Positions 14,854 through 33,781 of a DNA stretch of 64,000 nt are shown here, in pieces. The stretch comes from Fistulifera solaris (taxonomy: Eukaryota > Bacillariophyta > Bacillariophyceae > Naviculales > Stauroneidaceae). The stretch lies in contig AP026129.1 in NCBI GenBank assembly GCA_030295235.1, forward strand, positions 434,001-498,000, in the 5' to 3' direction. The position numbers were made by a program, and so were the translations under genes. How positions within the stretch are numbered: position 1 is the stretch's first letter; the number at the start of each line of letters is the position of its first letter. Under the pieces are notes generated by a model. It worked only from the letters and a program-made list of their open reading frames with translations, was not told where the DNA came from and ran no database searches.

Positions 14854-15481
14854 TAGAAAATTGGTTATCTATGATCTTTATGCAGTTGCATCTTTGAGTC
14901 TGCTTCTTGTCAAACAAAAGGCAAAGTGTTTAGCCCATAATTATTTGGCTTTGGACCAATGCTTTGCTCTCCTTTTTGTTAGCGGTACGATAGCGTTGAC
15001 TTTAAAGGACTGGTGAAAGTGAAAGCGTCGCTAATATACTTCTTACATTGTCGGAATTCAGCAGGAAAACTTATACACCATACTTCAAACCGAACTGGTC
15101 ACAACTGAAGAGGCTTGCGATCTGGGTGATATGACATTCCCTAGAAAAGAATTATCGCCTGAGAATTGATTACTAGTGAAGAAGCAGCACCAGGGAGTCG
15201 AAGAGCCTGGATCGCTTAACTTGCATATGTTTCGTTATTCTCTAACGGAATTGTGAAGGGAATTTTTGAGGACCACTCTTCATTCCCAACCAGACCGCAA
15301 GACACTTGTAAAGCGGCGATATGTAACTTCTGGTGCTCAGTTATAACGTATTAGGTATAAAAGGAGAAAAAATGCAGTAATTGAAAAGGAAGTCTTCCCT
15401 GTTGTAAGCCTTGTGTGAGGGCGAACGAATGAGGCCCGGTAAACAGTAATGAGCCAAATTCTTTGCACTTGCCTTGAGCCT

Positions 15482-15562
15482 GGAAACGACGTTAAAATTC
15501 TGCCTCCAGTACACGATTCTACGTAGCGTCAACGACGACGCAGAATTTTAACGCCGTTTCCC
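15482..15562 (-). repeat. ~80-bp hairpin repeat, copy 1 (inverted orientation)
   Basis: Arms ACGTTAAAATTCTGCCTCC and CGCAGAATTTTAACGCCG form a near-perfect stem of about 20-25 bp with a loop of about 30 nt. Read on the minus strand it aligns end to end with the copies at 28.3 and 33.3 kb, including the loop (ACGCTACGTAGAATC). Confidence 0.85.
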
Positions 15563-15589
15563 GGTGCCCGCCCGTTGCCTTTACCTCTC

Positions 15590-16000
15590 TAGTACCGGTA
15601 CCAGGTACTACCTGGTATCGCCTTTCAAATGGTTATGGATTTTACTTGTCGAAGCGACACCGAGTTGCATGGATCATAACATTCTAAAACAATTTACCCA
15701 ATGTGGTCGGTGTGTTGATGGTAATTCGTAAGTGGAAACAACTTTCATTACTCACCTTAGGCCGTTCCTAACTTAAAGTTGGATAACCTTAAAGTTCGAT
15801 TTACCCCAGTGTGAGATTATGGGTTGTCGTCTACACAATTGATTATAGTCGTTAAGTGGTTTTCGATTATTATCTACAATCCATACTTTTTCGTGTCGTT
15901 CAACTAAGTAAAATCCCCCGAATTTCACAAGGCGATTTAGTACCAGGTAGAATTGCAGTACCGTACCTGGTACTGGTACCGGTACCAGGTACGTAGTAAC
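15590..16000. repeat. GGTACC/TACCAGGTA clusters
   Basis: Cluster at about 15590-15625 (AGTACCGGTACCAGGTACT) and a longer one at about 15940-16000 (GTACCAGGTAG, TACCTGGTACTGGTACC). Same units as the 9.5 kb clusters. Confidence 0.75.
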
Positions 16001-16145
16001 TACGTAGTAGTAACATGCACCAAGATCCAAGATGAGCAATAGTTTTTGTCAACTCACAATCATTCGACTTGTTAAGGAAGGCAAACCAAGATAAACCAGG
16101 ACGCTAAACAGCTGATTGCTTGGCGATGCATGCAAAATAGTTGAT

Positions 16146-19100
16146 ATGACTGCTAGTAATGCACCAGCAAGTGCTGCTGGAAGTTCGGCAACCTCTAAGA
16201 TGAATGACGTTGAAGCGCTTCACGAACCTGTCGAGACGCAAGAGTTGTCGGCAATTGAGACGGTTCACAATAAAACTAAATTGTCGGGTCAGGGTCCAGC
16301 AAATTTTCCGGATGAATTGCCCTCTTGCAATTGCGAAGCGCCTTCCTTTTCGTCTGCTTTGCAAATGAAAGACCCCGCCGCGAAGGAAACTACAACGACT
16401 CGTACTTGCCCACCAAAAAAATTTCAGCAAGTCGACGATACACTTGCAGATTCTCTCCCCGAGAATGATGAAATTATCTTAGCCGAAAACAAGCTTAAGA
16501 CGTTACCATCGAATGAGCATGAAAAGAATTCATCAACATATAAAGGACCGCCAATAGTTGATACAGGCAATCCACGCGACGGCACGACAAACAAGGAAGC
16601 GCACAATCACAGGCTCTCGGAAAATCGAGAAACTCCTGATACTCCTGTTTTACAAGAATCGCAGAATGTGTCGGTGGGAAATAGCCGGCCCGACACTGTT
16701 GTTGTCGGTGGCGGCGAAAATGTTACCGGCGATCCTTCGCAACAAAAGAATTTATCTGACCCAACAATGATGATACAGCAAAACACGTGCATATCCCAAC
16801 AAGTACCGGAAACAGGACATCAATTTATACCGGCAATAGATGCTGCATCAATACGTCGTCCCGCGATCGTTGAGGGGACACCCGTTCTTCCAGTTATAGG
16901 TATCCCAGTGGCAGACAACAGCGCTTTGGCTTCTACTGCAACTGAGAACGTCACACAGTCGCAACTGAACCTCATACACACTGTTGTTGCACCAGAGGGG
17001 GCAACTGTCGTGGGTATGGTAGGAACAACACCTATCGTCAGGCTTCCGGATGCTTCAAAAGACTCGTAACGAAAAAGAAAGGCAGATTTAAGGTTTTTCA
17101 ACCGGTCATAGATGTCGTGCCAGTTGATTCTACTTCGAGTTCGCCTAGCACGACCATACAGGCTCCTACGGAAATGGCTCTTGCGGATCCCAACATGCCG
17201 ACCGTAGGAGGACAAGAGACGACAGGCGGTGCCGATCCAGAACCTGCAATGTTAATCAACCAACCTCCACTCCCATCCAACAATCCGGATGAACCCCAAA
17301 CATTCGAAGGGACAGGAGCTCCTGTAGTGAAACGAAAAGGTCGTTTCTTCGTTACAAATCTGAAAGATCCTGCCGTGATTGCTATCAACATTCAGCCCCA
17401 AATGGTCAATGGCGTACCAATATCAAACGCACCAGCAACTCAAACAACGGTTGAATCTTATCAGTTAACCTCAACTTACGTTCAAACCAGTGCACCAAAT
17501 ATTGCTGTTGCACCCGGTGCTGCGGATTTGTATCAATCTGTTGCAACGGCGGCACCCTCAGTCAATAGTCAAACGGTCATGCTATCCACAGTTCCAGTAC
17601 TCCAGCAACATCATCCTCAGCCTCAACCTCCACAACCAGTTCAATACGATCACTCGGTAGTGTCACAGCATCATTCGGGGGTTCATGTTCAAGAAACTTT
17701 TCACTTAGACCGCAATACCCAACGTGCTACCGAGCCGCGACAGTCATCGATACAGCAGCCAAACGTGACATTGCCAGGCGGCGCGGAAGGAACGAATCTT
17801 CAAAGTGATGTTTGGCCAGCCGAATCTCAAGTCGCATCAGAGAAGGTAGATAGTCCAAGTGATCGACCAATAGAGCATTCTGAAGCGTCACAAAACCAGA
17901 AACCACTTGCTCGACGGTATCAGTCAGTGCCAAAAAGTGGGCGGGAAGAACACCTTGCGCCCACAGGCCTTGGAAAGGTTTTTCATTTTCTTGATCAAAT
18001 GCGAACTGAAGTGACGCAAGCGGACAAGCTGATCAAGACGCTACAGACCGAGAACCGTCTATTGGTAAGTTACGGAATTCGCTTATTGTGGATCGGAAAC
18101 CTACTGTAACTGAATTGATACGCCTACAGAAAGAGAGAAACAAGGAGCTGGAGGCAAAAGTTATAGACGGTGACAGGAAGTTTCGAGAGGAAAAGGCGTT
18201 TAGGGAGGCTACTGATGCAAAATTGAAGGCTCTTCGGAAGAAAGTGCGCTCCATGAAAGAAGGTTCCGAGATTCAGAAAGAAGACGATAGTACCTTAACG
18301 ACTGCCCAACAGTCAGAAAACGCAGAAGCTGACCAGAAGAAGGCATTGTCGGGAAGTATTCAACCAGGCTCTGGGCACGCCGCTGCCAACCAAAAAGCAA
18401 ATTTGCCGCTACATGATGGACCCAAGAAAAGTAACCATGCAGCACATTCCCTACCAGCTACTCCAGATACAAAGGTTAAATCAAACGCTACATCACCTGA
18501 ATTAATGATGTTGCAAGTCGCTTCCGATAAAGAGCTTCCCCCGACACCTCCTTTTTCAAGGAGAAAGGGCTCTTCATCGTCAAATGTTCCAGTACCAAAA
18601 CCTAGTCCCAGTCATAGTCGAGTGAAATCCACACCGCATCTCCCAACGCACTCAGGGTTTTTAAACAACGGTCTTCCAAATCAACTGACTCGGAATAGTG
18701 ATACGTCGTCAACATCCCATTACGCTCATGTCCCACAAAGCGCAGGCGTTACACAAAGGGAGCACAGGGCCCCACGACTTGCCTCGACAGAGTTTGATCC
18801 TCTTGCGCCGAAAAAAGCGTCTGCTGCCCAGGTCGACAGCTCACATATCAACTTTGACCCTTTTTCGTCTGTTGCTTCACCGAACCAACACATAAGTGCG
18901 GGATTGCAAAGCAGCAACGGCACTCCGACTCACGTCATTCAGCCGACGTCTCTTTTTACTATGAACCAAACCACTGTACCAATTCCTGTTCATAGTCAAA
19001 CTGGGACATCTTTCGAACTCTTTGATTACACGACAATTCAGAATCAGCCGAAGACACAGCAGGATTTGTTACAGCAAAGCAATTGTCAAGAATCGCATCA

Positions 19101-19383
19101 GCAAATTCTTCTTGTACCGCAGCAAACGCTCGAGGTTTTAACGGACAATCAGATGTATCCAAACGCTTTAACTATGGGAAGTGCGAGCAACGTGCTCATC
19201 GAGCAAAATGTCTTGAACGTTGCGACTTCCGGGATGTGGGGTCCGCAGCCAGAAGAAGTGACAGTGGCACACGTAGAGACACAGCCAAAGTCAGATTTCG
19301 CCCAGGCACTAGCGTCGCAGTCCAGACTCAGCTTGCCATTGGACCCATTTGATGACTTGTTGAGTCGAGTCAATCAATCATAA
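16146..19383 (+). CDS. Large disordered protein with coiled coil, RFxV and DPF motifs
   Basis: 1057 residues: exon 1 16146-18064, a 65-nt intron (18065-18129), exon 2 18130-19383. One A is missing at 17057-17060. About 600 N-terminal residues are low-complexity Pro/Gln/Ser/Thr. Two repeated basic blocks stand out, TKKKGRFKVFQP and VKRKGRFFVTNL, both with an RFxV core. A coiled coil spans roughly 620-700 (FLDQMRTEVTQADKLIKTLQ, KERNKELEAKV, LKALRKKVRSMKEG). The C-terminal third is again disordered, with FDPLAPKK, NFDPFSS and a terminal LPLDPFDDLLSRV. RFxV cores are known docking motifs for SPAK/OSR1-type kinases, and DPF motifs for clathrin-adaptor ear domains; both roles here are inference. 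No enzyme domain is seen. The start is ATG 16146, since the upstream in-frame TTG is unlikely. Confidence 0.75.
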
Positions 19384-19521
19384 CTCGCAATTGGTGGAAG
19401 TCAAGTACATGGTCGTATTTATATTTTGCTTCATTAGAATATGTATTATATCCATATATAAGAACAATTTAAAGAACAAAACTTGCGAGCTTCGCCAACT
19501 GACTTTGATTCCTTCATCGCG

Positions 19522-20690
19522 TCACCTGTACTTGCTGCCTTCGTCTTTCCGTGCTAACAACTCGTCGGCCTCATCCAATGGTTGGCTTTGTAATAACTCG
19601 ACGACTCTACGCAGAACACTAACCAAGAGTATTGGAGCGCGAACCAAACCAACAATGAATGTCTCCAAAATACCCAGCGGTGAGTTTCGATCATTATCCA
19701 TAGGGCGTTTCTCCTCCAAAATTCGTTGAATACTTTTCAGGCGCAATCGTTCCGCATCACTGAGCTGCGCTAACGTTTCATAAGCCTTTTGCTCTGCTTC
19801 CCCCAATGGCCCTTTGTACTTGGCATCTTTTGGTCGAAGGAATACGCCTGGTGCATTCATACGCTTTTCGGCAGCTCTCTTTTGCTCCGCATCGAATAGC
19901 TCTAGTACTTTGGCTTCAAGTTCCCCCAGCGGCCCAGGAACATCCAAAGGACGAACAACTTCACCACCTCTCCGTCTGCTTTGACTCATTCGCAATAACT
20001 CAGCATCTCGAATTTCTTCAAAAATACGGACCGCTCTGTATTCGGCTTCGCCGAGAGGACCGCGCATCGATTCATCCAAATCCTTGGGTCGGATTGTCTT
20101 TGTACGAACACGCTCACTTTCAGACAACTTGATTCGATCGAGAAAGTCGCTCGCGGCACTCTCAAGAAAGCCCAGCGGCCCTAGTTCTGTCCCCGCATCT
20201 TTCGGCCTCACCAACTGCCCTCCTCCATTGACAATACGTTCGGCTCGCCTTCCTTCTTCTTCGACGACTTGCGACAACCATTCTACTGCGGATTTCTCCC
20301 ATCGACCCAAGGGGCCTAACGAACTCTCACTCGCATCCATCGGGCGAACATACATAGGATCCTCACCTCTCATGCGTGCAAGACTCTGTTCGAGCATACG
20401 CTCGGCTTCTTTGCTTTGAAGATGTCAGATCTCCATTTATAGTCTTGAAGACTGAGCTGAGCGAGGTTGCGTGCTAGCGATTGAAAGATTGTTGTCTCTT
20501 GTTGTTCTGTATCAGATGATGGTTCTGGGTTGGAATTACCGCCGTACAGCTCGCCTTTGGGTTCTCGCGGAGAAACTGCGCAGAGAGCAACATGCGCTCG
20601 ACCAGAAATGGTGTTTGTAAACGTAAAGCAATCGACGCCGGCGAGGAACATCAACGCCATCAGGCACAAAGAATGTCGCGCTTCTACCAT
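19522..20690 (-). CDS. Putative plastid protein with six RPxD-GPLG repeats
   Basis: 389 residues from ATG 20690. The N-terminus (LCLMALMFLAGVDC then FTFTNTISGRAH) resembles the diatom bipartite plastid presequence, with Phe after the signal cleavage point. The body is six tandem repeats of about 30-45 residues: R-P-(M/K/L)-D, a short spacer, (G)PLG, then an amphipathic helix (for example VRPKDAGTELGPLGFLES, IRPKDLDESMRGPLGEAEY, LRPKDAKYKGPLGEAEQ). The last unit is degenerate (KRPMDNDRNSPLG) and leads into a hydrophobic helix ETFIVGLVRAPILLVSVLRR that could be membrane-associated. One A is missing at 20410-20412, joining the presequence frame to the repeat frame. I do not recognise the family or function. 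Confidence 0.7.
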
Positions 20691-21443
20691 AGTCTACCCG
20701 AATTATATTGTGACGATAAGTTTTATCAAAAGAAAGCAAATGCTCGCAAGAGTTAAAATAGTAATAATGCAGACCTTTCTTACTGTTCATTCATTGCAAC
20801 GAAACAGCGATTGAGTTGAAACCGGTACAAGTAGTTGTTGGGAAACGCGTTGATGGAGTCACCGCGCACGAATACTTTGTAATCATTGCGTGTGTTTGGC
20901 TGTTGGTGCGACAAGTTCTGGTAACATCGCGTCATACCTCACACACGTCATCGCTCATCGCCGTACTTAACGCCAACCCCAATGCAGAAGCATAGACGGA
21001 GTGTTATGAGAGACGTGGCTTGACGTGGATGACGTACCCCTACTTTATTCCTTTCTGTGTCACAAGAAACATGTGACGTTGATCGATGATGGTTGATGCA
21101 GAGGGTTGATGGTTGATGGTCCGTTTGTGTGTTTGTGTGGTCCACTTTTGTCCGTCTTTCACCTCGTCTTTTCGTCATCGTTGGCGCCAAGGTCGGATAA
21201 AGCGTTCTAATCCGAACGAACTACAACGACATTCATTCCAAACTTCCCTCTAGGTTAGTTACAAAATTGAGTTATCGAGATACTGACACGGAAGGTTTCT
21301 CTTTTAGGACTAAGCTGGAGTAGTTAAGAAATCTGTTCTACGTAATATCATTCTTTCGAAGTCTATAATTTTTGCTAGGATTGTAAACAAAGTTGTTTAA
21401 TATTATGGAAAAAATATAGACAAGTAAACAGCATCAATCATCT
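20691..21443. other. Intergenic region
   Basis: About 750 nt between two minus-strand genes. A GATGGTTGATGCAGAGGGTTGATGG direct-repeat-like stretch lies near 21086-21119. No gene or RNA recognised. Confidence 0.4.
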
Positions 21444-21818
21444 TCACCACCCTTCTTCCATTAAAAACTCATCAAAGCTCAGTCCAGGGCTCTCTTCACG
21501 GAGGAAATCGGCAATGACGTACTTCATGTACTCCACTTTTCCAAAAGACAGTTGTCCCTCTAGCCCGCCCATCACAGGTAATTCAAAGCAACCTAACACT
21601 GGTAATAGTGAATGCTCGGTTTTATGGCTCATCTTTTTGATGGTGTCGATAGAGTGAATGAGGTCGAACTGGAGCTCTTCGGGAACAATGCTCTTGGTTA
21701 CACCGACAACCACTCTCGAGGTATTTGATGGAGTCACCAGAAATGAAGGTTCAGCCTCCAGTAACTGAAAGGATTCCTGTTTCACAGTCTTGGTATCTTG
21801 CTCTCCTTTCTTTGATAT

Positions 21819-21854
<36 letters not shown>

Positions 21855-22364
21855 TGCCGAGATGTATGATAGTGATGACGACGACGGCTCTGGTGATACC
21901 CACGGCATGGCATAAAAATCAGGTTCTTGGTCAGGATTGGACTTGCTGCGAACTCCTGTTCCTTTTATTTGGATACGAGTGATTTCCTTGACCAGGTAAG
22001 GTTTTCCTCGTAGAAAAAGCTCATGATAATAACAGCCTTTGTCTTGTCCTTGAGTCAATCGTAAAAAACCGTACATATTACACTGACGGAGAAAGCTCTT
22101 ATACTTGGTGATCTTAAATCGGCCGGCAAGGATCGCTTGTAGCTCTTTTGGCTTGTGAATGGCAAAGCATCGGCCATGTGGCTGCCAGGAGATAATATGG
22201 TCAATTTGGTCGTGATGGGCTTGTTCAAGAAGCGCAAAGAGGCGCATCGGAAACTTGTTGAAAGATTTGGCTTCGTTGGATGGCATGTCGTTGGCATGAT
22301 CGTGATAGTTGTGCTGCACAACGGTGTTTTCAGGTGGGTCGTTTTTGTTGGTCGGTCGGCACAT
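21444..22364 (-). CDS. HSF-type DNA-binding transcription factor
   Basis: 306 residues, ATG 22364. A heat-shock-factor DNA-binding domain occupies about residues 35-130: FNKFPMRLFALLEQA, IISWQPHGRCFAIHKPKEL, then the recognition-helix region FKITKYKSFLRQCNMYGFLR and HELFLRGKPYLVKEI. HSFs bind nGAAn elements, and diatoms carry an expanded HSF family, many members not obviously tied to heat. A pure run of 12 Asp (GAC codons) at about residues 171-182 separates the domain from a variable acidic tail. There is no clear HR-A/B trimerisation coiled coil, as in many diatom HSFs. The gene is divergent from the gamma-carboxylase-like gene. The frame is intact. Confidence 0.93.
21819..21854. repeat. 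CGT/GAC trinucleotide run in HSF coding sequence
   Basis: Twelve consecutive Asp codons (GAC on the minus strand, CGT repeats on +) inside the HSF gene; a coding microsatellite prone to length change. Confidence 0.85.
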
Positions 22365-23239
22365 TTTTTCACAACACTTTGTCGGAAGAGGTGCGATGAG
22401 TCGATGACAGAAAGATGCGCTCGCGGAAGATAATGAGCAATCCAGTTAACGGAATGAAGTCGTCGAAAGGATTCTGATCAAAAAGAATCTGGTGGTCGCA
22501 GAAAAAAATAAGCAATCCGATCCAATGGATACGATTTTAAGTTCTTGTTTGATATTGTATGTTACTTCTTGCCAAAGGTCGGAAGTTTGGCCGAGCCCAG
22601 GCAAAAAATAATGCAACAGTCACCTCACACACGGTTACATGTCCGTGATGTACTTTATATGATATTGGAAACAATTCTTACCATTACGACAAAAAAGCAC
22701 TAATTAAACGTAAGCCCCTATGTCACAAAGTACACTCCAGTACCGGACACGGCAAAATGATTGGTGCGTCGACGATCGACGACTGACATTACTTTAACAG
22801 GGCTTGACAAAAAAATTTACAGTGACAATTTATTGATAATTTCTACATAAGCAATTAGTACCGCATAGAAGTCAAAAATTCCCGAGACCCGCGAGCACTT
22901 TTACTTTAGAAAGCCCAGTAAAACTGAAATTTCAGTCATGGATGCAACGAAAGTGACATCACCATTTTTCTTCCTCTCGCTTTGAACTTTCGCAACGAGC
23001 GTTTTGCACGTGCACAGAAATTTCGGCGGAAAAACACGGAAAAGATTTTGAGTGGCATGAGAACTCGTGAGTGAACCGATGAGTGAAGTACGGAAGGACG
23101 GATCTTTTGTGTGTGCATTCGATCTTTCTGGAATTTCTTTTCATCGACGACCTTCTACAATCGTGGGGGGTGGTCGGGGGTCGGGGTAGCGTACTTGAAT
23201 TGCTTGCTTCGGTCGTTTCTAGCACATTGAACACCACTC
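22365..23239. other. Divergent intergenic region
   Basis: About 875 nt between the HSF and gamma-carboxylase-like starts. Contains the perfect palindrome ACTGAAATTTCAGT at 22923-22936, followed by CATGG (family of five). A short minus-strand frame at 22959-23237 shows no family resemblance. Confidence 0.45.
22923..22941. repeat. CATGACTG/CAGTCATG palindrome, copy 2
   Basis: ACTGAAATTTCAGT perfect palindrome followed by CATGG; related to the copies at 9.9, 44.1, 51.4 and 54.3 kb. Confidence 0.65.
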
Positions 23240-25359
23240 ATGTCGTCGATGTCCTTGCGGAAGCGTCGCGACGCTTCTTCCGAAATTACCAGTGAAGATT
23301 CTCGAGAGGATGACGATGCATTTGACGACGCAGTTGAGAATGACGACAAGAAATCATCGTTCTATTTTTCATCTGCTGTACGCCACATGGCATGGTGGAG
23401 AATCGCGTTTTTTCTTATCATGTGGATGGAATGGAATTCCGATAGTGTCTTGACACCGTTCGGGTCTCTCGATATCACAACAGATGTCAAAATGCAAAAA
23501 TCAGGACATGATGCCTGGTTTCGATACGAGCACTTGACTTGGGTGCAGACTCTTCATAAACTCTTATCAACAACTTCAATCGGTCCCTATCTGAAGCCAA
23601 CAGGGCACGTGTGCTGCTTCATTGCAGCATTCGGCAAAGACTTGCCGCTCCTTTCGAACACGATATGGAAAGTTGCAACGTTGTCGTTTGTGATTCTGTA
23701 TAGCATTCGGTTCTGGGCAAAGGCCACAAATTTTACCAATCACAACTATTTATTCCCTTTGCTCATGTTCTGGACGCTCCTATCCGGAGGAGGAAACTTA
23801 TCCGGGCAGGTATTATATCAGGGCAAGACCAGCACGCTTCGAGATGATGGTGCATGTCAAATTGCCATCATTGCCCTCCGCTTCCAATTTGCCATTTTGT
23901 ACGGATACGCGAGTTTATGGAAAATAGTACACGAAGATTGGTGGGCGGGACGAATTGTAGAAGGTATCTTTGTGTCATTCGAAGAGAATGGCAGTTCGCG
24001 GGGTATTCCTTGGAAGCGTTTGTCGCATGAGTATCCCCATCTCTTCGTCATGGTTGCGTTCTCTGGCCTATTGCTGGATTTCAGCATGTTCATTGTGTTG
24101 GCCTTTACAAAACCGAGTCGCGCTACGCGAAACTGGTTCTTGGCCTTTACCTTGGCATTCCATCTCTTCACTACTGTTGCCATGTCGAATGTCATCGGAT
24201 ACTCTTTTCCATCGACTTGCATAGCGGGATTGATTCTATTCTTGCCTCTCACTCAGGCGAAAGAAGGCCCTGACTCTTTGGGACATGCCGACGCTGCGTT
24301 GGGGCGATGGTTGATGTTTTATGCTCAAGAGATATTGAGTAAATCGAGCCGTGATCGGTCACGTTCATTGTTGATCTTTTTTCTTTCTGTTTTGCGCCTG
24401 GCAATTCTTCATGCCTTTGCGCATGCTAGTCGTATCGCAAGGGAATTATCCTTACAATCGTTTGGGGTACCGCTACAGTTGGACCATGATGTTGCACAGT
24501 CTAGAGTACGGAATCGTACGGCACGAATTTGGTCAACCATCGACCCTGCTTTTGTTGAGCTATTTTGTACCCACGTGTTTTACACCGAATCGCAGCGACA
24601 TATTTATGCCACGGAGTCTATACTTTGGTCCTGGCTCAGAGCATCCTATGCAGGATTCTCGCAGCGTGCCAATGTATCAAATTCTGAGTAAGCGAGAGTC
24701 GGCAATGCTTGATGTTTTTCCATCACATCTTATCGCTCCAGTTGGAGCTGGTGTTGCTAGAGTTATCGATCAATCCGTCGGTCCGAATGCGTGTGCGGCA
24801 AGTCTTGCAAGTTATAATTTGCCTGCATCACAACTTCGGCTGGGAATGCACGGCACTTTTTCGGAAGACTGAATCAGAATGGCCCATACTGCCGTCTGGT
24901 AGATCCAACAGTGGACCTCGTCTCGGTCATGGAACAGCAAGCGAAATTGTCATACTTTGAAGTCTTGTGGAATGCAGTTTGGGACCGGCGTCCGACAGAA
25001 TACATGCTGGAAGGTATTGGTAGTATGAGAGAAAGGTCATTCTATCATCAAAATAAACTAGAAGAAGATGGCTGGAAGAATGTGCGCATCTTGGCTGATC
25101 GGGCTGCCTGCCTCTCCGCACGACCCATATGGTTTCGACCCATGAAAGAGACTACACGATCAAAGTGCTTGAACTGCCTCAGAATACCGTAGTCGGGTTA
25201 CTCGTCGAAAGGTCCATGAACATTTTGTTAAAGTATGGTGATTCACAACAAATCCGAGATGTGATGGAGTTCGAAATTTTAATGCCAGTGAAAGATCAAG
25301 AACCAGCTTGCTCGCAATCTGTTGCTGAAGATACGCTGATTGCCATAATGTGGAAATAA
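23240..25359 (+). CDS. Vitamin K-dependent gamma-carboxylase-like protein (HTTM domain)
   Basis: Multi-spanning membrane protein with the horizontally transferred transmembrane (HTTM)/GGCX fold, 706 residues after correction. The HTTM part shows RFQFAILYGYASLWKIVHEDWW, a family hallmark of the epoxidase/carboxylase core, then further membrane segments (FLAFTLAFHLFTTVAMSNVI). WQFFMPLRMLV, NYPYNRLGYRYSWTMMLHS and GRLNQNGPYCRLVDPTVDL match the conserved post-membrane blocks of GGCX relatives; the last 200 residues look like the lumenal domain. GGCX carboxylates glutamates using vitamin K hydroquinone; the substrate here is unknown. Three breaks: one T extra at 24377-24382, one T missing at 24857-24861, one C missing at 25124-25126. 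The corrected length is a multiple of three. The N-terminal 40 residues are acidic and cytosolic. Confidence 0.8.
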
Positions 25360-25453
25360 AAGGTAGTTGACGACTTTCGTTATCTATGACCGAGTACGAG
25401 ATTGTAGACTGTGCCAATTTAGACCGATTAATTACCAGGTCAGGAATCTATAC

Positions 25454-25720
25454 GTAAAAGATAGTCCTCTCTGATTATCGCAAGCTGTTGCTCTTGGAAA
25501 ATTTGCTGACTTAATCGAATTCGGATCTCGACGTGTCTCTGATTATCGCAAGCTGGTGCCCTTAGAAAATTTTGCTGACTTCACCATATTCGGATCTCGC
25601 TGTGTCGAAAAAATATGTGTATGTGAAAGATAGTCCTCTCTGATTATCGCAAACTGGTGCTCTTGGAAAATTTTGTTGATTTCACCATATTCGGATCTCG
25701 CCGTGTCGAAAAAGTATGAG
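25454..25720. repeat. Three tandem copies of the phosphatase gene 3' end
   Basis: Units at about 25454-25534, 25535-25622 and 25623-25720 share CTCTGATTATCGCAA, GGAAAATTT and ATTCGGATCTCG. The third unit includes the last codons and stop (25644-25646) of the phosphatase CDS. Read on the minus strand, the middle unit would encode nearly the same C-terminus (RDPNMVKS-KFSK-TSLR-stop). So the gene end was triplicated downstream of the functional stop. Confidence 0.85.
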
Positions 25721-27972
25721 ATGCGCCAAGATTGGAGTCCCCTCCCATTCGTCTCTTAGTTTGGGGTGCATCCATTCTTCCCGACATCCGTGCTGATTCT
25801 GCAGGGCTCGAATTTGACGGACGCTGAATGGTCGAAGCAGAACCCGATGTACCAAGTATAGCTTTAGCTGTGCTTTCTGTCAACCACCATGCATCTAAGG
25901 TAAGCCGGATTCGCCCATTCTCCAAACCGTTCTTGAAGATTGGAGCGTCTACGGTGATTGTCTTGACTGGGTCTTGTTCGTGTAAAGGCTGATTATCTGT
26001 TTTGCGTGAATCTGCTGTGAACTGTTGACTTGACTCGTCGCGACGAAACAGATTCATAATGCTTCCCCGGCGTGATGTTCTTCTCTCAGATGCGTTTGCT
26101 TGATTTTGTCGCAACTCACCAGGTGGTCGGAAATCTTTCAAAAGTACGCCCAGATTGTAAGAAAACGACCCCAACACATTATCAGAAGCACTAGGAACAA
26201 GTTTTGAATTTTTGCAGTCCATGACGGTGAAAAGACCAAAGCTCCGGTCATATCAAGCGGGCGCCCATCATTGTAAAATGTTTTGACTTCGGTATGAAAT
26301 ACTTCTCCTTCCCACAAAGGCTGAGCGGTCTGTTTCTGGACTGGCGAATGGGGCCAACCCTGGGGCGTTCTCTCCACAGGGCCTCCCCACTCGTCACTCA
26401 TGATGGAACTGTAATTGGAGAAGCAAGGAAAAATTTTCCTTTTGAGACGTTCCAGTCGACTCGTCGACGATTTGATAGCTTCTTCTGGTATGGAAACCAT
26501 AGAAATGTAGGGATTCGGTAATGAATTCCCCACTGCACCCATATTCACTGTCACATCCGACACAAATAAATATAGACGCTCCCTATGAATAGAAGAGTGA
26601 GCCAGCGGATTGTGATTCATGTGAAGGAAATCACCGGCCATTTGCATCGCAGATCGACGCCTCGCCATTTTCGGCCGCGCGGTCGCTGCCGCCTCATTCA
26701 GTTTTATAGCGAACGCAGCTCGTATAGGTTTGTGGTCGGAAGACTTGAAATCATCTACCGGCTCATACAATAAAGGTCGGACACTATTTTCCAAAAGGTG
26801 ATTCGATTTCCACAGAATTCGGTCTGTGTATGACGGTCGTCGCTTTTCGATGTAGCTGTATCCCGGTGACCGTTCGACTTTAAAAGTTGGCGGGAAGTTG
26901 CAGAATAGAGTTTTGAATCCAACCAAACAGTCTTTGACCCGCAAAGCTTTTTGCAGCTCATCCGCTTGGTTGAGCGTATTCCAGTCTCTTTCTTCTACTA
27001 AAGCTCGGAGCTTCTGTCGATGCTCGGCTTCATGGTGACCGTGGGCGTAGGCAGGTAGCTCGGTTCGGAAATTCAAGTCGCCCATGACGAAGCAATGGTG
27101 AGAGGTTAAGCTTGCATCGTGAAGCGTAGAACTCGGTTTCGCACCGCCCAATATATCACTGAGGGACGAACATCGCATCTGGTATTTGGCAGCCCCTTCA
27201 TGAGCTTCCAGATGTGCTGTTAGGAAACTGAGACGCGTTCTTTTATTAACGATCAATTCAGCAATGATCCCTCCCTTGTTGGCCAAGCCGGCTCTTCCCG
27301 TGTTTTGCGCTTTTGTGTACATAACGTCCACCTCAATGTCACGCTTCTGATGGTAAACAAAAATCTCCAATCGCATTTGTCCCCGTTGATAGGAAACAAT
27401 CCGTTCATAGGAAGGCAGTCGTTTCGTCATCATTTCATGCAATACGAATGTCCCTAGATCCCAGTTCGAGTCTACTACCGCAGCAATCATGGCGGATTCG
27501 CCCGTTTGTCCCGATTCCTTTCCCTGCACGTCTGCCAGATTCGGTCGGCCTGTTTCTCCCATTCGGTCAACGACACTTCTTCGGACCATGGATGATTTGA
27601 TGTGATCTCGACTTGCCGTGTAGGAAGATAAGTCATTCACTGCTTTCGCGATTCCCTTTTACCTTTGCGGGGTTTTCGTTTGGATTGCGTTCCGCTTTCC
27701 GTCGAAGCAGCGTCTTTGTCGTTGAGATCTTCTTCCGTCGGCGGATCGAATGTTGCTTCTTGCATACCAACGACAATGAGATCGAACTTGTCCTCATCTA
27801 CAAAATCTTCAAACGTGCTGAATTGATCTCGCACGGGATACTTTGCTGGATACTGCAACACTTGGTTGCACTGACCGTCCTCAGGCAACCAGAGAGCCAT
27901 GCTTTCTTCGTCGGGCTGGGCATTTCCGAGGTTCGCTGAGCAGACTAAGATTTGCAATTGCCCGTTCTTCAT
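25644..27972 (-). CDS. Inositol-polyphosphate 5-phosphatase (IPPc domain) with C2-like region
   Basis: Phosphoinositide/inositol phosphate 5-phosphatase of 776 residues after correction. The IPPc domain begins at the start (ILVCSANLGNAQPDEES; VVGMQEA) and includes NKGGI, FLTAHLEAHEG, the catalytic block MGDLNFR, RRPSYTDRILWKS and SSDHKPIRAAF, so the magnesium and catalytic residues are present. After about residue 420 comes RLYLFVSDVTVNMG, C2-like, then a serine-rich tail. The start is ATG 27972, directly before the domain. Two breaks: one A missing at 27657-27660 and one T missing at 26230-26233; adding both gives 2331 nt. Likely acts in membrane trafficking or lipid signalling. The 3' end lies inside a triplicated repeat. 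Confidence 0.9.
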
Positions 27973-28640
27973 CGCTCCGGATGGTTCGCCGATACTTATA
28001 GCTAACGAACGACTATGAACCGGATTTAATTGGCGCTCTTTAGATGTATGATGGGTAAGACAATTGCCAGCTGCCTCGAAAGCAAAATAATGATGATGAG
28101 ACACGACGCTCTGCGTGCCTTTTTCGTCCTCCCTTCAGCGTCCGCGCCTCGGCGGTCCGCGGCGTTGGCATTTTGCTTTGCCGTGACTTGGACGTGGGGC
28201 ATTGTCTGACGTCACCGCTACACTTAACGGAACACAAGTCGTTGCGGGGTCATTTGTGGTCATCAAATGACCAGGAACGTGTCCCCCTCCGAACCAGGGA
28301 ACGGCGTTAAAATTCTGCCTCGTCGTAGACGATACGTAGAATCTTTTACTGGGAGGCAGAATTTTAACGTCCCTCCAAATCATCATTACTGGTATTATTT
28401 GTGTAGGCTTGAGAAGAGCAGGCTGTCGCAACGTGTACTACACACTCGCGGTTTTCGGAGTAGGGGGTAGACCACAATGACGGCAGATGAGGGATGAGGA
28501 TAAAGCATATGGGTATACTACGGATCAGCTTTTCAAGTGATCATCATTATTTGCTGCAAACGACGCGATGCGCGTTAGCGCGTTTTACTTTTCTTCATTT
28601 TCGAATAGGTTGCAACCTTGAAAGCTTTTGCCTTTTAAAG
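27973..28640. other. Divergent intergenic region with hairpin repeat
   Basis: About 670 nt between the phosphatase and the AAA ATPase, presumably both promoters. It holds hairpin repeat copy 2 (28298-28377). Short frames crossing it (28135-28431, 28267-28470) are translations of the repeat. Confidence 0.5.
28298..28377 (+). repeat. ~80-bp hairpin repeat, copy 2
   Basis: Arms GGCGTTAAAATTCTGCCTC and GAGGCAGAATTTTAACGTC pair almost perfectly; loop about 30 nt (GTCGTAGACGATACGTAGAA...). Flanks GGGAAC and CCCTCC extend the stem imperfectly. Confidence 0.88.
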
Positions 28641-30110
28641 ATGATGATGTTTCATTTAAATAAAAGAATATTGCTATTGCTGCTGTACCAAGTGGTCTAT
28701 TCCCATGCCGGTTTTCGGTGGGGGTGGCTCAGGTTTAAACGACAGACTCATTCCGAACCCACACGACCAACGAATCGTGACAGTTCCCCGAATGATGCTT
28801 TGTTTCTTCACCAGCAATCATGTCCTTCTCTACTGGAAGATCCATCACACAATTCAGTAGGACGAAGCTCCTATGATGCGACGGCCGTAGCAAAGACTGC
28901 GGTGCAATGGAGTTTGATTATCTTTTTGGCCCGATCGATCTGGCAAGCTTTCAAAGATGTCGCGGAAGAAATTGCATCCATGGATAATTCCGAAGAAGAT
29001 TCAAAGCTACTAAATTTCCCCCTTAACAGAGTTGCTGGAAGCAAGGAAACATCATTGATTCATCGAATCGCATGGAAGTTGAGCCAATGTGGTATTCCTC
29101 TTCAATCTTCAACCGAACGTTCGGTAGAGTCGATTTTGCAAAAACTGACCAAGAATGAAGCGGCATTGCTAGACCAGTGCTTGTATATCCCATCAGCGCA
29201 CCCCAAAATAGCTGGCTTCAACGAAATACAAGAAGAACTTCAATCCATTCTGAATCAGTATCTTCATCAAGGTAATTCAAACCAGCATCCCTACTCGAGA
29301 CTATTTGAAGATGACAAGAGTCATCACGTCTTATTATACGGCCCGCCAGGCATGGGAAAGTCGCTTCTCATTAAAAGATTGACCACTCAAATACCAACGG
29401 TTTTGCTGACACCCAGTGTCTTGCTACGAAAGTGGGTCGGTGAAACGAATATGCGAGTTCGAACGCTCTTCACAGCATTGCAAAAACTAGCCCCCGTCAT
29501 GCTGTGTCTAGACGAAGTGGACGGCTTGTTCCGGGAACGCCAGATTCAAGAGCACGAGGTATCGAGGGATTTAAAGACGGAGTTTCTGCAGTGGTGGGAC
29601 GGTTTGTTATCGGGTGAGAAAATATGGATTGTAGCAGCGACGAACCGACCATTTGAAGTAGACTCGGCAGTCTTGCGCCGTTTGCCTCGTCAGTTTTATA
29701 TTGATCAACCAAATCTTGCAGCACGAAAAAAAATGTTACGCAACTTGTTAGAGGGATTGCCGCACGACATTGATGTCGAACACGTCGCCTTTCACACCGA
29801 TGGCTTCTCGGCTAGTGACTTACGGCGGCTTTTACAATTAGCTGCAAAAGGATGCAAAGAACTTGATACCTATGTTGAAATGACGACAGGTCATGTATTG
29901 GGGGCGTTAGACTTCGTGCAACCTACTCCTCAGACTCCAGCGTATCGAGCTGCCTTGAAGAAATATCTTTCTCCACAGGGACAGCAAGCTCGATCACCAT
30001 ACATTGAACACTATCAAATTGAACTTGAACTTGAGTCTGACTCTGACGCTGATAAGAACGGAGCAGATGAGGAGTGTCTCAGTGACGATGACGCAGATGA
30101 TGACCCTTGA
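28641..30110 (+). CDS. Msp1/ATAD1-like AAA ATPase with signal sequence
   Basis: 489 residues from ATG 28641. The N-terminus MMMFHLNKRILLLLLYQVVY then SHAGFRWGWLRFKR looks like a signal peptide followed by a basic stretch, suggesting secretory-route or complex-plastid targeting. A second hydrophobic segment (AVQWSLIIFLARSIWQAF) follows near residue 90. The AAA module has Walker A GPPGMGKS at 234-241, the pore-loop region KWVGETN, Walker B CLDEVDGL at about 289, HEVSRDLKTEFLQWWDGL, sensor 1 ATNRPFEVD at about 333 and arginine fingers RRLPRQF. The HEV...KxEFxxxWDG pattern is characteristic of the Msp1/ATAD1 membrane-protein extractases. It ends in an acidic tail. The frame is intact. Compartment is inferred only. 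Confidence 0.85.
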   Translation: MMMFHLNKRILLLLLYQVVYSHAGFRWGWLRFKRQTHSEPTRPTNRDSSPNDALFLHQQSCPSLLEDPSHNSVGRSSYDATAVAKTAVQWSLIIFLARSIWQAFKDVAEEIASMDNSEEDSKLLNFPLNRVAGSKETSLIHRIAWKLSQCGIPLQSSTERSVESILQKLTKNEAALLDQCLYIPSAHPKIAGFNEIQEELQSILNQYLHQGNSNQHPYSRLFEDDKSHHVLLYGPPGMGKSLLIKRLTTQIPTVLLTPSVLLRKWVGETNMRVRTLFTALQKLAPVMLCLDEVDGLFRERQIQEHEVSRDLKTEFLQWWDGLLSGEKIWIVAATNRPFEVDSAVLRRLPRQFYIDQPNLAARKKMLRNLLEGLPHDIDVEHVAFHTDGFSASDLRRLLQLAAKGCKELDTYVEMTTGHVLGALDFVQPTPQTPAYRAALKKYLSPQGQQARSPYIEHYQIELELESDSDADKNGADEECLSDDDADDDP

Positions 30111-30752
30111 GACATACCTAAACTTAGAAAACGTTTTTGGAGGTATTCTTGATAGTCTCAAGCAACGCATTTGCTTGGCTTGACATTTTGGACCATGGTT
30201 TGAAGTTGTTTCGCCACAAGGTCTCTTCTTTTGTGGGTCTACCAGGTACTCTCTACTCCGTAGCTAATTGCTGTCGATCTCTATCCCTAACACTCGTGAA
30301 TGATGGTTCCAAAGAAACGTTCGCGACGACAAATCACACCTCAAGAAACAGTTTGGGAAGACGAAAAGAACATAGAACATAGCACTATCTTTAGTACTCA
30401 TTTCTATTTCTGTTTTTAACCACGTTCATTAAAGAGCTATACAAAATTCTCTTTTGGCTTCCAAAGAAGTCGCCGTGACCCGTGATCGTGACCCGTGACA
30501 ACATTCATAATTTATAGTAAACGAGGAAGGAAGGAGCACAAAGCACTAAAAAAATCAAACGGGACATTTTGAAATTGCGACCTGTTCTGGCTTCTGACCT
30601 CCAGCAGCAAATTCAGACCGCACCAGCTCCGCAGCAAGAACTTGCACAAGCAACACGCCGTGTTCTCAACTGATTGATGATTTCTCGACTTGTTGTTATT
30701 CGTAAAACGATTTCTCCGTGTTATTATTGTTACAATCAATTAATCATTCACA
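30111..30752. other. Intergenic region
   Basis: About 640 nt. Contains TACTCCGTA at 30254-30262 and a direct doublet GTGACCCGTGATCGTGACCCGTGA at about 30475-30498. No gene recognised. Confidence 0.4.
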
Positions 30753-32386
30753 ATGTTTGACAGTCTCGATGACATCAAGCTGATCCTTGAAGAGGACATG
30801 GGCAGTGAAGGAAATCTAAATTTCGACCCCATGGATGATTTGGATTTCCTCAACGATGACTTGTTCACCGACCCTGCACCTAAACTTGCGCCCAGCTCAG
30901 TCTCTACACCCTCTTTTGGGTCTCCGAGTTATACCATGACCAGTAAGAATCCGGAGTCGACGGCGAACGCAACGTTCGATTTCAAATCCACACCTTCAAA
31001 TGCGAATACAACCTTTAGCTTTAATAATGATGCACGATTGCCGAAGAGTGGGCTCGGGGGTTATCTCGACAACGTCAGCTGAACTCGCAATCGTTAGTAC
31101 AGCGGTCGGTGTCTACTTCCTCTATGCGCAATCATCGATCCCTAGCTGGCAATAACTTATCATCATCTTCGAATGCGACGTTTGAAACGAAAAGTAGCAA
31201 CCCGGTTGCGTCGTTTTTGCAGCGGCAGAACCAGCTTAAAGAACAACGGGGGAACGCTTCCATGGCAAAATCCTATTCTATGAATTCTGTACGTAAGAGG
31301 AACTTTGGTACGATTGACGAGCACAAGCCGAATGCCACGTTCGACGACCATGAACCTTTGATGTCGAGAAATTCAATCGCCTCATTTTTGAAGGCTAAGC
31401 AAAGCGCCCCGGCGCTAGGGCGTTCTATTTCTACGTCGCTTATGAAGCCAAATCATCAGGTACTACAGCAATCGGATCATACGTCGCATACTCTCAATGC
31501 AATCCTTTCCACGCATAACTTAAAGAAGGCTAGGATGGGGTCGACGGAAATGAATGGTGGGGGGAACGCTCACTTTGATTTCGACATGGGCTCCCGCTCT
31601 TCGGCAAATCCCTTCATGAAGACCTTAAGTCAAAGCAATAGTCAAGCACTCTCTTCATCAAAGTCAGCTAACCAGTTTATGCAACAGATGGGTCGGCTTC
31701 AGACAAAATCCATGAAAAGCGCTTTCGTTTTCGAGCGCGACAACAAGGAACCTCCGAACCAGAGAGGAGAAGAAATAGAAGGACCCATGGATGAAGCTTT
31801 GCTACACAGTTCGTGTAAACTGTATCATGACAATCTAGCTGTTGTCGAAAGCGCCTTGGGACTGGATCCATCTGCGGTGAGACGCTCAATCCCTACACTT
31901 TGCAGCCGTCAGTCCAATTCACTATGGAAGCGATCAGGAAAGGAAGGTAAATATTGCTATCCTCTTAATATTGCTTTATACTTTCAAGCGCCTCTCGATA
32001 TTATTCGATTGCTGGCTAACGCTGGATCAGATGTGTTGGGATTCAACGACGGTCCTGATGGTGCTGGAAGTTTAGGCATTGCTATATCTTGTCACAATGC
32101 CTCCTGGCCCGTTGTTCAATTACTGTTGAGCGTGAACCCCACGACCGCATCAATTGTTGATAGACTGGGAAATTTCCCTCTGCATCGTATCTTACAATCA
32201 ATGCCAACCGAGCAGACAGTTACTGCGATCTACGAGGCATACCCGGAGGCTTTGACAAAGCGGAACTTCCACGGGAAGACGCCTTTGGATTTAGCTGTCC
32301 ACAACGTTACTTGCCCAGAAGCTGTTGTCAACGCTCTTCAAAGAAGGTCCTATTCGCGGATGGAACGCAATGCTCAACATATGTGA
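30753..32386 (+). CDS. Ankyrin-like (LPLH-type repeat) protein with disordered N-terminus
   Basis: 544 residues after one inserted base near 31078, where the first frame stops at 31082 and the second opens. The N-terminal 300 residues are Ser/Asn/Thr-rich with recurrent short blocks NATFDFKS, NATFETKS, NATFDDHEP and two alike segments (NPVASFLQRQ, NSIASFLKAK). The C-terminal 200 residues carry ankyrin-like units: YPLNIALYFQAPLDIIRLLA, LGIAISCHNASWPVVQLLL, GNFPLHRILQSMPTEQTVTA and GKTPLDLAVHNVTCPEAVV. The layout matches the LPLH repeat proteins frequent in diatoms, also represented at 56.1 kb. Function unknown; likely protein binding. Confidence 0.75.
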
Positions 32387-33781
32387 AAAATTTATGCGAC
32401 GTCAAGGGATTGAATTCAAGAAAGTATTTTTGTCTAAAAATTGGGCTGTATCTGTTCGGGTTTAAAAACACCATTTTGTCAGCGGAATAATGGCATGAGC
32501 TCAAGTGGTAGCTCATGTTCATGGTAGGCTGCTGCGAGATCTTGGAGTGTCGTGCTGGTGGTCGCTGGCCTATCAATCGGTTCATAACTAGGCGATAGCC
32601 TTCTCGTACTCTCGAGCCTGCCTTTACTGAGACGATTCATGCGTAGCCAAGGATCGCATAAGCCGGTAAAATGAGTTGATAAGCTATGAAGTGTTTCCTA
32701 TCTACATGTTCGCTTAGTTCAAGATAGCAGTCCTCTAACAATGCATTTAGTTGGCGGTGAAAACTAGACTAGAGCTAATAGATAACAATTTCACATCTAA
32801 TAACTATGCGTAATGTTTGACTATTAGCCATGGATAATGGATAAATGTCTCAAGACAATACGATTTTGGTCAATTTATGTATTGGCGTTGACAAAACGTA
32901 TGTTCTTATCCCAAGTCCTTTAAGTCATGTTGGTGATGAGAGAGTGGAGCAACTACTGCTGCCAGGTACTGGCCGCGTTTGCCCTGGGTCATGTTGATCG
33001 TCTGTTCCCAAAGTTCCTAATAGCAATACCTCCACCCTCCACATCGAAAGTTCTTCATTGAAAATGGAGCCTAGCTGGGCGCAGTTTTTCATTGACAAGA
33101 ATAGCTAAGAAATGACACGGCTACATAATTCTAGAGAGAATGCGTTGGACGGTTTCCGGGACTGGATATTGATTGAGTCGTGAGTGGTTTGCATACGAAC
33201 TACGGTGGTAGTAATCTCATTGAGTCGCATCGAGTCTCTCAGGTCACAGGCCTGAAAAATCATGGGCCACCTACCAGAGCCTTTGGGAACGGCGTTAAAA
33301 TTCTGCCTCGTCGTAGACGCTACGTAAAATCCTGTACTGGGAGGCAGAATTTTAACGTCCTTCCCGTACCAGTACTTGTGCCGTAGTTTTCTACGGCAAC
33401 AAAATGCAAGGCCATGCACTAAAGGGCCATTTCGACCACGAAGAGGCCGCGAAAGATCTCTTTCAAGGCTATTTTGATGTCTGGTGTTATTTGTTGTGAC
33501 TGTGAGGCAACGAAACGTGCAAAGCCTCTTCTTGGAGCGACGAACAAGAACTCCCTTTACTTGTAGGAAGCCAATCAGCCCTCTTCTGAGGTGAGTTGAC
33601 GAAGCGGAATGAAACCATGTTGCTACGTTTTCGTGAGACTCTTTGCGGTGCGAGCAACTTCATAGACATAACGGATTGGCGACATATTTGGTGTATGAAG
33701 TTATAATGCTCTTCATCAGTGCAGCTAACTCACTTTTTCCACATTTATTCTGCAACAGCAGACAAGAACGTAAGATCAAAG
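32387..33781. other. Intergenic region with hairpin repeat
   Basis: About 1.4 kb, the longest gap in the window. It holds hairpin repeat copy 3 (33285-33365). Frames at 32328-32585, 33105-33419 and 33487-33669 have no family resemblance, and the second crosses the repeat. No RNA gene recognised. Confidence 0.45.
33285..33365 (+). repeat. ~80-bp hairpin repeat, copy 3
   Basis: GGGAACGGCGTTAAAATTCT opens the left arm and AGAATTTTAACGTCCTTCCC closes the right arm; they are inverted complements with 2-3 mismatches. Loop GTCGTAGACGCTACGTAAAA... is nearly identical to copy 2. Confidence 0.88.

Follow-up and report, generated by a model that had tools for sequence, protein, structure and literature searches.

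Hairpin copies in the window and at the homoeologous locus

The window analysed here is a 64,000-nucleotide stretch of the Fistulifera solaris genome (C10:434001-498000 of an assembly of 51.7 Mb in 61 contigs). It contains three copies of a hairpin repeat, whose coordinates are collected in Table 1 and whose ends were placed by reference to 97-124 copies of the family described below. The initial annotation had located three such copies, the first inverted and none containing a gene. Arm matches and folding confirmed the copies at those places, the orientation was borne out by alignment, and all three were found to lie in gaps between open reading frames (ORFs) of at least 150 amino acids. Copy 2 occupies a gap of about 390 bp between two divergently transcribed ORFs, one ending at 28104 on the minus strand and the other starting at 28494 on the plus strand; the flanking ORFs are of the endonuclease/phosphatase family (PF22669) and the AAA ATPase family (PF00004). 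A comparison with Rfam gave no match in the window.

Table 1. Coordinates of the hairpin copies, their terminal inverted repeats and their flanks in the window. Subtypes are explained in the text.
Feature	Position	Strand	Basis or remark
Copy 1, variant of subtype B, 78 bp	15483-15560	-	Inverted relative to copies 2 and 3
Copy 1 left flank CTG, imperfect target-site duplication with CCG at 15561-15563	15480-15482		Sequence and inferred boundary
Copy 2, subtype B, 79 bp	28298-28376	+	Absent at the homoeologous site on C9
Copy 2 left flank CAG, right flank AAA, duplication lost	28295-28297		Sequence and inferred boundary
Left terminal inverted repeat of copy 2	28298-28321	+	Arm matches and inferred boundary
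Right terminal inverted repeat of copy 2	28353-28376	-	Arm matches and inferred boundary
Copy 3, subtype B, 79 bp, upstream of the ORF at 33719 (+)	33286-33364	+	Absent at the homoeologous site on C9
Copy 3 left flank TTG, right flank CGT, duplication lost	33283-33285		Sequence and inferred boundary

The arm TTAAAATTCTGCCTC was found exactly at 15492, 28307 and 33295 on the plus strand and at 28353 and 33341 on the minus strand, and the sixth arm, at 15537 on the minus strand, differs from it by one mismatch. When the arm alone was searched in the window with up to three mismatches, seven matches were obtained against 2.74 expected. Since 3 of 100 shuffles also reached seven, such loose single matches are weak, and the case rests on the five exact arms and their pairing. 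In addition, folding of the three copies as single-stranded DNA gave z scores of -6.2, -6.4 and -7.3, and folding as RNA gave -6.4, -7.4 and -7.2, with each copy beating 200 of 200 shuffles in both assays. Copies 2 and 3 share 94% identity.

The homoeologous locus was identified on contig C9, which is 85% identical to the window across the interval separating copies 2 and 3, neither of which is present on C9. For copy 1, no arm with up to four mismatches in 15 was present in the C9 stretch bracketing the homoeologous site (L149); the nearest ~1 kb of the window (15013-16053) gave no alignment with C9, and the empty site of this copy was thus not read base by base. All three window copies are therefore unshared with C9. 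Conversely, C9 has a copy of its own that is missing from the window, where the corresponding place lies about 190 bp downstream from copy 2. Divergence at the homoeologous sites prevents a clean reading of the original target.

A dispersed family with a CNG target-site duplication

The initial annotation had proposed a genome-wide search with the arms, on the view that a lack of further copies would speak against a repeat family. The exact 15-nt arm matched 602 times in the genome (292 + 310) and the exact two-arm pattern 210 times per strand, whereas the reversed controls matched nowhere, and copy 2 as a DNA query returned at least 81 matches when the best 40 of 415 candidates were scored. 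The family thus comprises hundreds of further copies and is not confined to the window; once paired arms are subtracted, the number of sites that have one or more exact arms is estimated at about 400. The elements are non-coding, measure 78-80 bp and end in terminal inverted repeats of about 24 nt. Because the copies were gathered by exact arms or by similarity to the window copies, the conservation of their arms is unreadable as selection. An 18-nt arm pattern had no exact match among viral contigs, in a collection that may omit records of this genome.

Flanking sequences were compared for 124 pooled copies from 116 loci, the window counting as one locus; near-duplicates in this set are L007/L107, on the overlapping contigs C43 and C44, and L137/L138. 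Near-identical stretches on different contigs were observed for C43/C44 (100% over 161 bases), for C40/C49 and for L137/L138 (on C52 and C24), and may be due to a redundant assembly or to duplication of contig ends. In both L137 and L138, moreover, a long G run is followed by a tandem arm.

A scan of offsets and lengths over 97 copies placed the best 3-bp flank repeat directly outside the 8-nt ends (38 copies vs. 12.1 expected), with 2-bp windows inside the same triplet giving a slightly larger excess, as expected. In the pooled set, identical triplets flanked 42 of 124 copies, against 13.1 expected (sd 3.1), a count that none of 20,000 shuffles reached. The excess was seen for both loop subtypes: 9 of 45 subtype A copies (3.2 expected; 19 of 20,000 shuffles reached nine) and 33 of 79 subtype B copies (10.5 expected; no shuffle of 20,000). 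The initial annotation had suggested looking for target-site duplications of 2-10 bp; the one seen here measures 3 bp and has the form CNG, mostly CAG or CTG. Over 97 copies, the left triplet had C in 76% and G in 85%, and the right triplet C in 87% and G in 66%, with any base between. Among the 48 copies with CNG on both flanks, the middle base agreed in 40 (14.6 expected), being A in 15, T in 15, C in 6 and G in 4. With 30 of these 40 duplications reading CWG and 10 reading CSG, the target extends beyond the CWG that has been published.

A perfect 3-bp duplication was found at none of the three window copies, and the flanking triplets differ in 82 of the 124 copies, the window copies included, which suggests that much of the family is not young; the flank tests require ungapped ends and score a duplication beside a 1-base deletion as a miss (for example at L150, L161 and L162). 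The initial annotation had described the copies as diverged rather than recent. This holds for the three window copies, which have no intact duplication, but in part fails for the family as a whole, in which 42 of 124 copies keep perfect duplications and 8 of 44 loops are identical to their subtype consensus.

Two loop subtypes and the parental subgenomes

For a comparison of loops, 52 copies were selected solely by their exact arms, and the eight whose loops deviated from 35 nt were set aside. The remaining 44 fell into two subtypes, A (20 copies) and B (24 copies), whose consensus sequences differ at 5 of 35 positions. The mean pairwise distance was 2.4 within A, 2.7 within B and 6.8 between them, and the mean distance to the own consensus was 1.35 (A) and 1.42 (B). 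Loops identical to the consensus were found in 2 of 20 A copies and 6 of 24 B copies.

Exact 16-nt subtype patterns were then counted genome-wide, giving 96 matches for A and 81 for B; these are exact pattern matches rather than whole elements, so that mutated copies are missed and neighbouring matches can share one locus. A single subtype was present on 44 of the 45 subtype-bearing contigs, the only mixed contig being C6 (two A and two B matches), and the remaining 16 contigs had neither. Minority matches numbered 2 of 177, as compared with at least 40 in 5,000 label shuffles. Homoeology was established for eight pairs, mostly via one short coding probe each: C9/C10, C1/C2, C3/C4, C15/C16, C19/C20, C21/C22, C30/C31 and C42/C43+C44. 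Probe identity between the partners was 84-94% (77% for one partial probe), and in each of the eight pairs the exact A matches were located on the partner named first and those to B on the other. This partition of the subgenomes by subtype is unusually clean and merits follow-up.

Copies of the "wrong" subtype are few. Two A matches lie on C6 (C6:1353387, L150; C6:1814497, L151), and a B-like copy lies on the A-bearing C1 (C1:1016172, L014); at L150 the CAG duplication is intact once a 1-base deletion is allowed for. These three copies may reflect transposition or exchange after hybridisation.

F. solaris is described as an allopolyploid with 42 homoeologous chromosome pairs (PMC5935921), and the 61 contigs of the assembly are fewer than the 84 chromosomes that these pairs imply. 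One published F. solaris guide-RNA site (PMC13276009) has a single exact match of 23 bases in the assembly, on C39, which together with the homoeologous contig pairs indicates this species. Transposon relics diagnostic of subgenomes are known from Xenopus laevis (cited in PMC5935921), where parent-private repeat subfamilies likewise mark the origin of chromosomes; the markers described here differ in being sister subtypes of one family, five of 35 loop positions apart. According to the same source, long reads and a robust assembly are a precondition of the relic strategy; its own assignment was based on GC ratio and codon usage (PMC5935921). The practical value of the subtypes is that they label parental origin in this oil-producing diatom without alignment, and do so independently of the method based on GC ratio and codon usage (PMC5935921). 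With this label it becomes testable where homoeologous exchange occurred and whether transposons crossed between the subgenomes after hybridisation.

Nature of the element and its likely transposase

High copy number, fixed ends, the CNG duplication and absence from homoeologous sites lead us to conclude, with high confidence, that the hairpins form one MITE family, that is, short non-coding DNA transposons with terminal inverted repeats of about 24 nt. Foldback/MITE elements were one of three readings offered by the initial annotation, and this one stands; the other two, hairpin RNA and a structural role, are required by nothing that was seen, and each may at most be a secondary role. It could be argued that the hairpins are transcribed or processed, as small-RNA or siRNA loci or as regulatory hairpins in untranslated regions, and that the repeats are kept by this function. 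The very stable RNA fold (z from -6.4 to -7.4) and the location of the copies between long ORFs, with copy 2 between two divergent ones, are in line with this proposal. However, two inverted ends by themselves produce a stable fold, which weakens the proposal, and the copies occupy different positions on homoeologous chromosomes, many lie beside CNG duplications, and Rfam had no match in the window; we consider a function of this kind very unlikely as the explanation. A structural or chromatin element kept by selection, such as a site of replication or recombination that spread by gene conversion, would agree with the palindromic structure and with the conserved look of the arms, although the latter is biased by a search that found copies by their arms. 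The lack of the window copies at homoeologous positions and the duplicated targets beside many copies argue against it, and it appears extremely improbable.

For the MITE family, a cut-and-paste transposase supplied in trans would recognise the ends and insert the element at CNG, with a preference for CWG, and 3 bp would be duplicated. The hairpin would then be a by-product of two closely spaced inverted repeats. The family may have been present in the common ancestor, have been amplified separately in the two parents before hybridisation, and have been nearly silent since.

The diatom MITE is nearly all inverted repeat and is, to our knowledge, unusually short. It has the 3-bp duplication and the high copy number in common with Tourist-like MITEs. 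Tourist-like MITEs such as mPing, which derive from PIF/Harbinger, are likewise short and non-coding, with ends recognised in trans (PMC12595863); in contrast to the CNG of the diatom family, the usual PIF/Harbinger duplication is TWA (PMC4482050). A closer likeness is offered by NuwaI of the PHIS superfamily, which duplicates CWG, has terminal inverted repeats of 12-61 bp usually starting with GGG, and includes autonomous candidates of about 4.5 kb with a DDE transposase and a Myb/SANT ORF (PMC4482050). The diatom family resembles it in part, with a 3-bp duplication centred on CWG, a G-rich start of the terminal inverted repeat, and a repeat length of about 24 nt that falls within 12-61 bp. 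It differs in its diatom host, in the presence here of only ~80-bp copies without a partner found, and in CNG rather than strict CWG (PMC4482050). The commonest ends are GGAACGGC in subtype B and GAAACGAC in subtype A, as compared with the usual GGG of NuwaI, and subtype A starts with GA rather than GG.

From these comparisons, the transposase is probably of PIF/Harbinger (PHIS) type and nearest in target to the NuwaI branch. The family likely works like a PHIS MITE, while membership in NuwaI is unproven. Taken simply as a repeat, the family is an ordinary MITE of a known kind, though with an uncommon target. NuwaI was reported in 16 animal genomes only (PMC4482050), and this transposon branch, which one broad survey found only in animals, would be extended by the occurrence of a CWG-type target in a diatom. 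In titles and abstract openings, mostly of open-access papers, on diatom MITEs, on CWG-duplicating Harbingers and on F. solaris transposons and subgenomes, the family is not described, and this absence is no proof that it is undescribed.

The search for an autonomous partner bears on this assignment. No longer element with the MITE ends was found by exact-pattern searches, in which arms were judged among the first 100 of the 602 matches. The genome has 24 matches to the DDE_Tnp_4 transposase, and the MITE ends were absent from the six of these loci that were examined (L133-L136, L147 and L148), over 3.4-5.2 kb each, beyond which a larger element could reach; the best arm-like word there had three mismatches in 15. 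End patterns that exclude the MITE interior gave 73 matches against one in the control. Ten loci examined at length were mostly tandem, shortened, truncated or degenerate MITE copies, and most of the other 63 matches, judged from 22 bases each, read like MITE loops. One of the ten (L140) showed no visible element, another (L141, described below) is a relative with a different interior, and L145 has a left end with no right end within 581 bases. A second pattern of this type (25 matches vs. 14 in the control) included no inward-facing pair 1-10 kb apart. A candidate at C2:978-983 kb was rejected: its two arms are separated by 5.1 kb, but each is part of a short MITE of its own, and the ORFs between them are not transposase-like by eye and have no DDE_Tnp_4 match.

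A MITE of another superfamily with 3-bp duplications, such as CACTA/CMC, or of an undescribed transposase family would compete only with the assignment to PHIS. This alternative gains from the outcome of the above searches, six of 24 DDE_Tnp_4 loci and the pattern searches having disclosed no PHIS transposase with matching ends, and from the fact that duplication length alone does not define a superfamily. However, CACTA/CMC ends begin with CACTA or CACTG, whereas the commonest ends here begin with GGAAC and GAAAC. CWG-type duplications with G-rich ends are, moreover, described for NuwaI (PMC4482050), and we regard another superfamily as rather unlikely. Taking the PHIS assignment together with the subtypes, we tentatively propose that a CNG-targeting, PHIS/NuwaI-like lineage was present in both parents of the allodiploid and gave rise to sister MITEs in each, which now act as a near-perfect parental label; the few copies of the wrong subtype would then represent transposition or exchange after hybridisation. 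This combined account is plausible, though its chances fall somewhat short of even.

Several unusual loci were observed in the course of these searches. At L134 (about C31:273576-276186), a candidate Harbinger-type element of 2.6 kb has perfect 14-nt ends, GGCCCGTTCCTAAC, unlike those of the MITE. It is flanked by a TCA repeat, and an ORF of 426 aa in it overlaps a DDE_Tnp_4 match. L147 (C10:11700-15506) and L148 (C6:1902120-1905896) share a 3.8-kb segment at 99% identity, which contains a functionally uncharacterised 480-aa ORF besides a DDE_Tnp_4 match and is either a recent duplication or a larger transposon. L141 (C11:843498) is a relative that shares the first ~20 nt of the ends with a different interior and lies within a field of CCAGAATTTCTGG-like palindromic repeats. 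Finally, the copy at L081 (C3:592210-592420), together with about 15 bp of flanking sequence, is a near-perfect palindrome. Each of its ends is of the type otherwise seen on the right, GAAAGGAC, which looks as though one half was overwritten by a copy of the other, perhaps in hairpin-templated repair.
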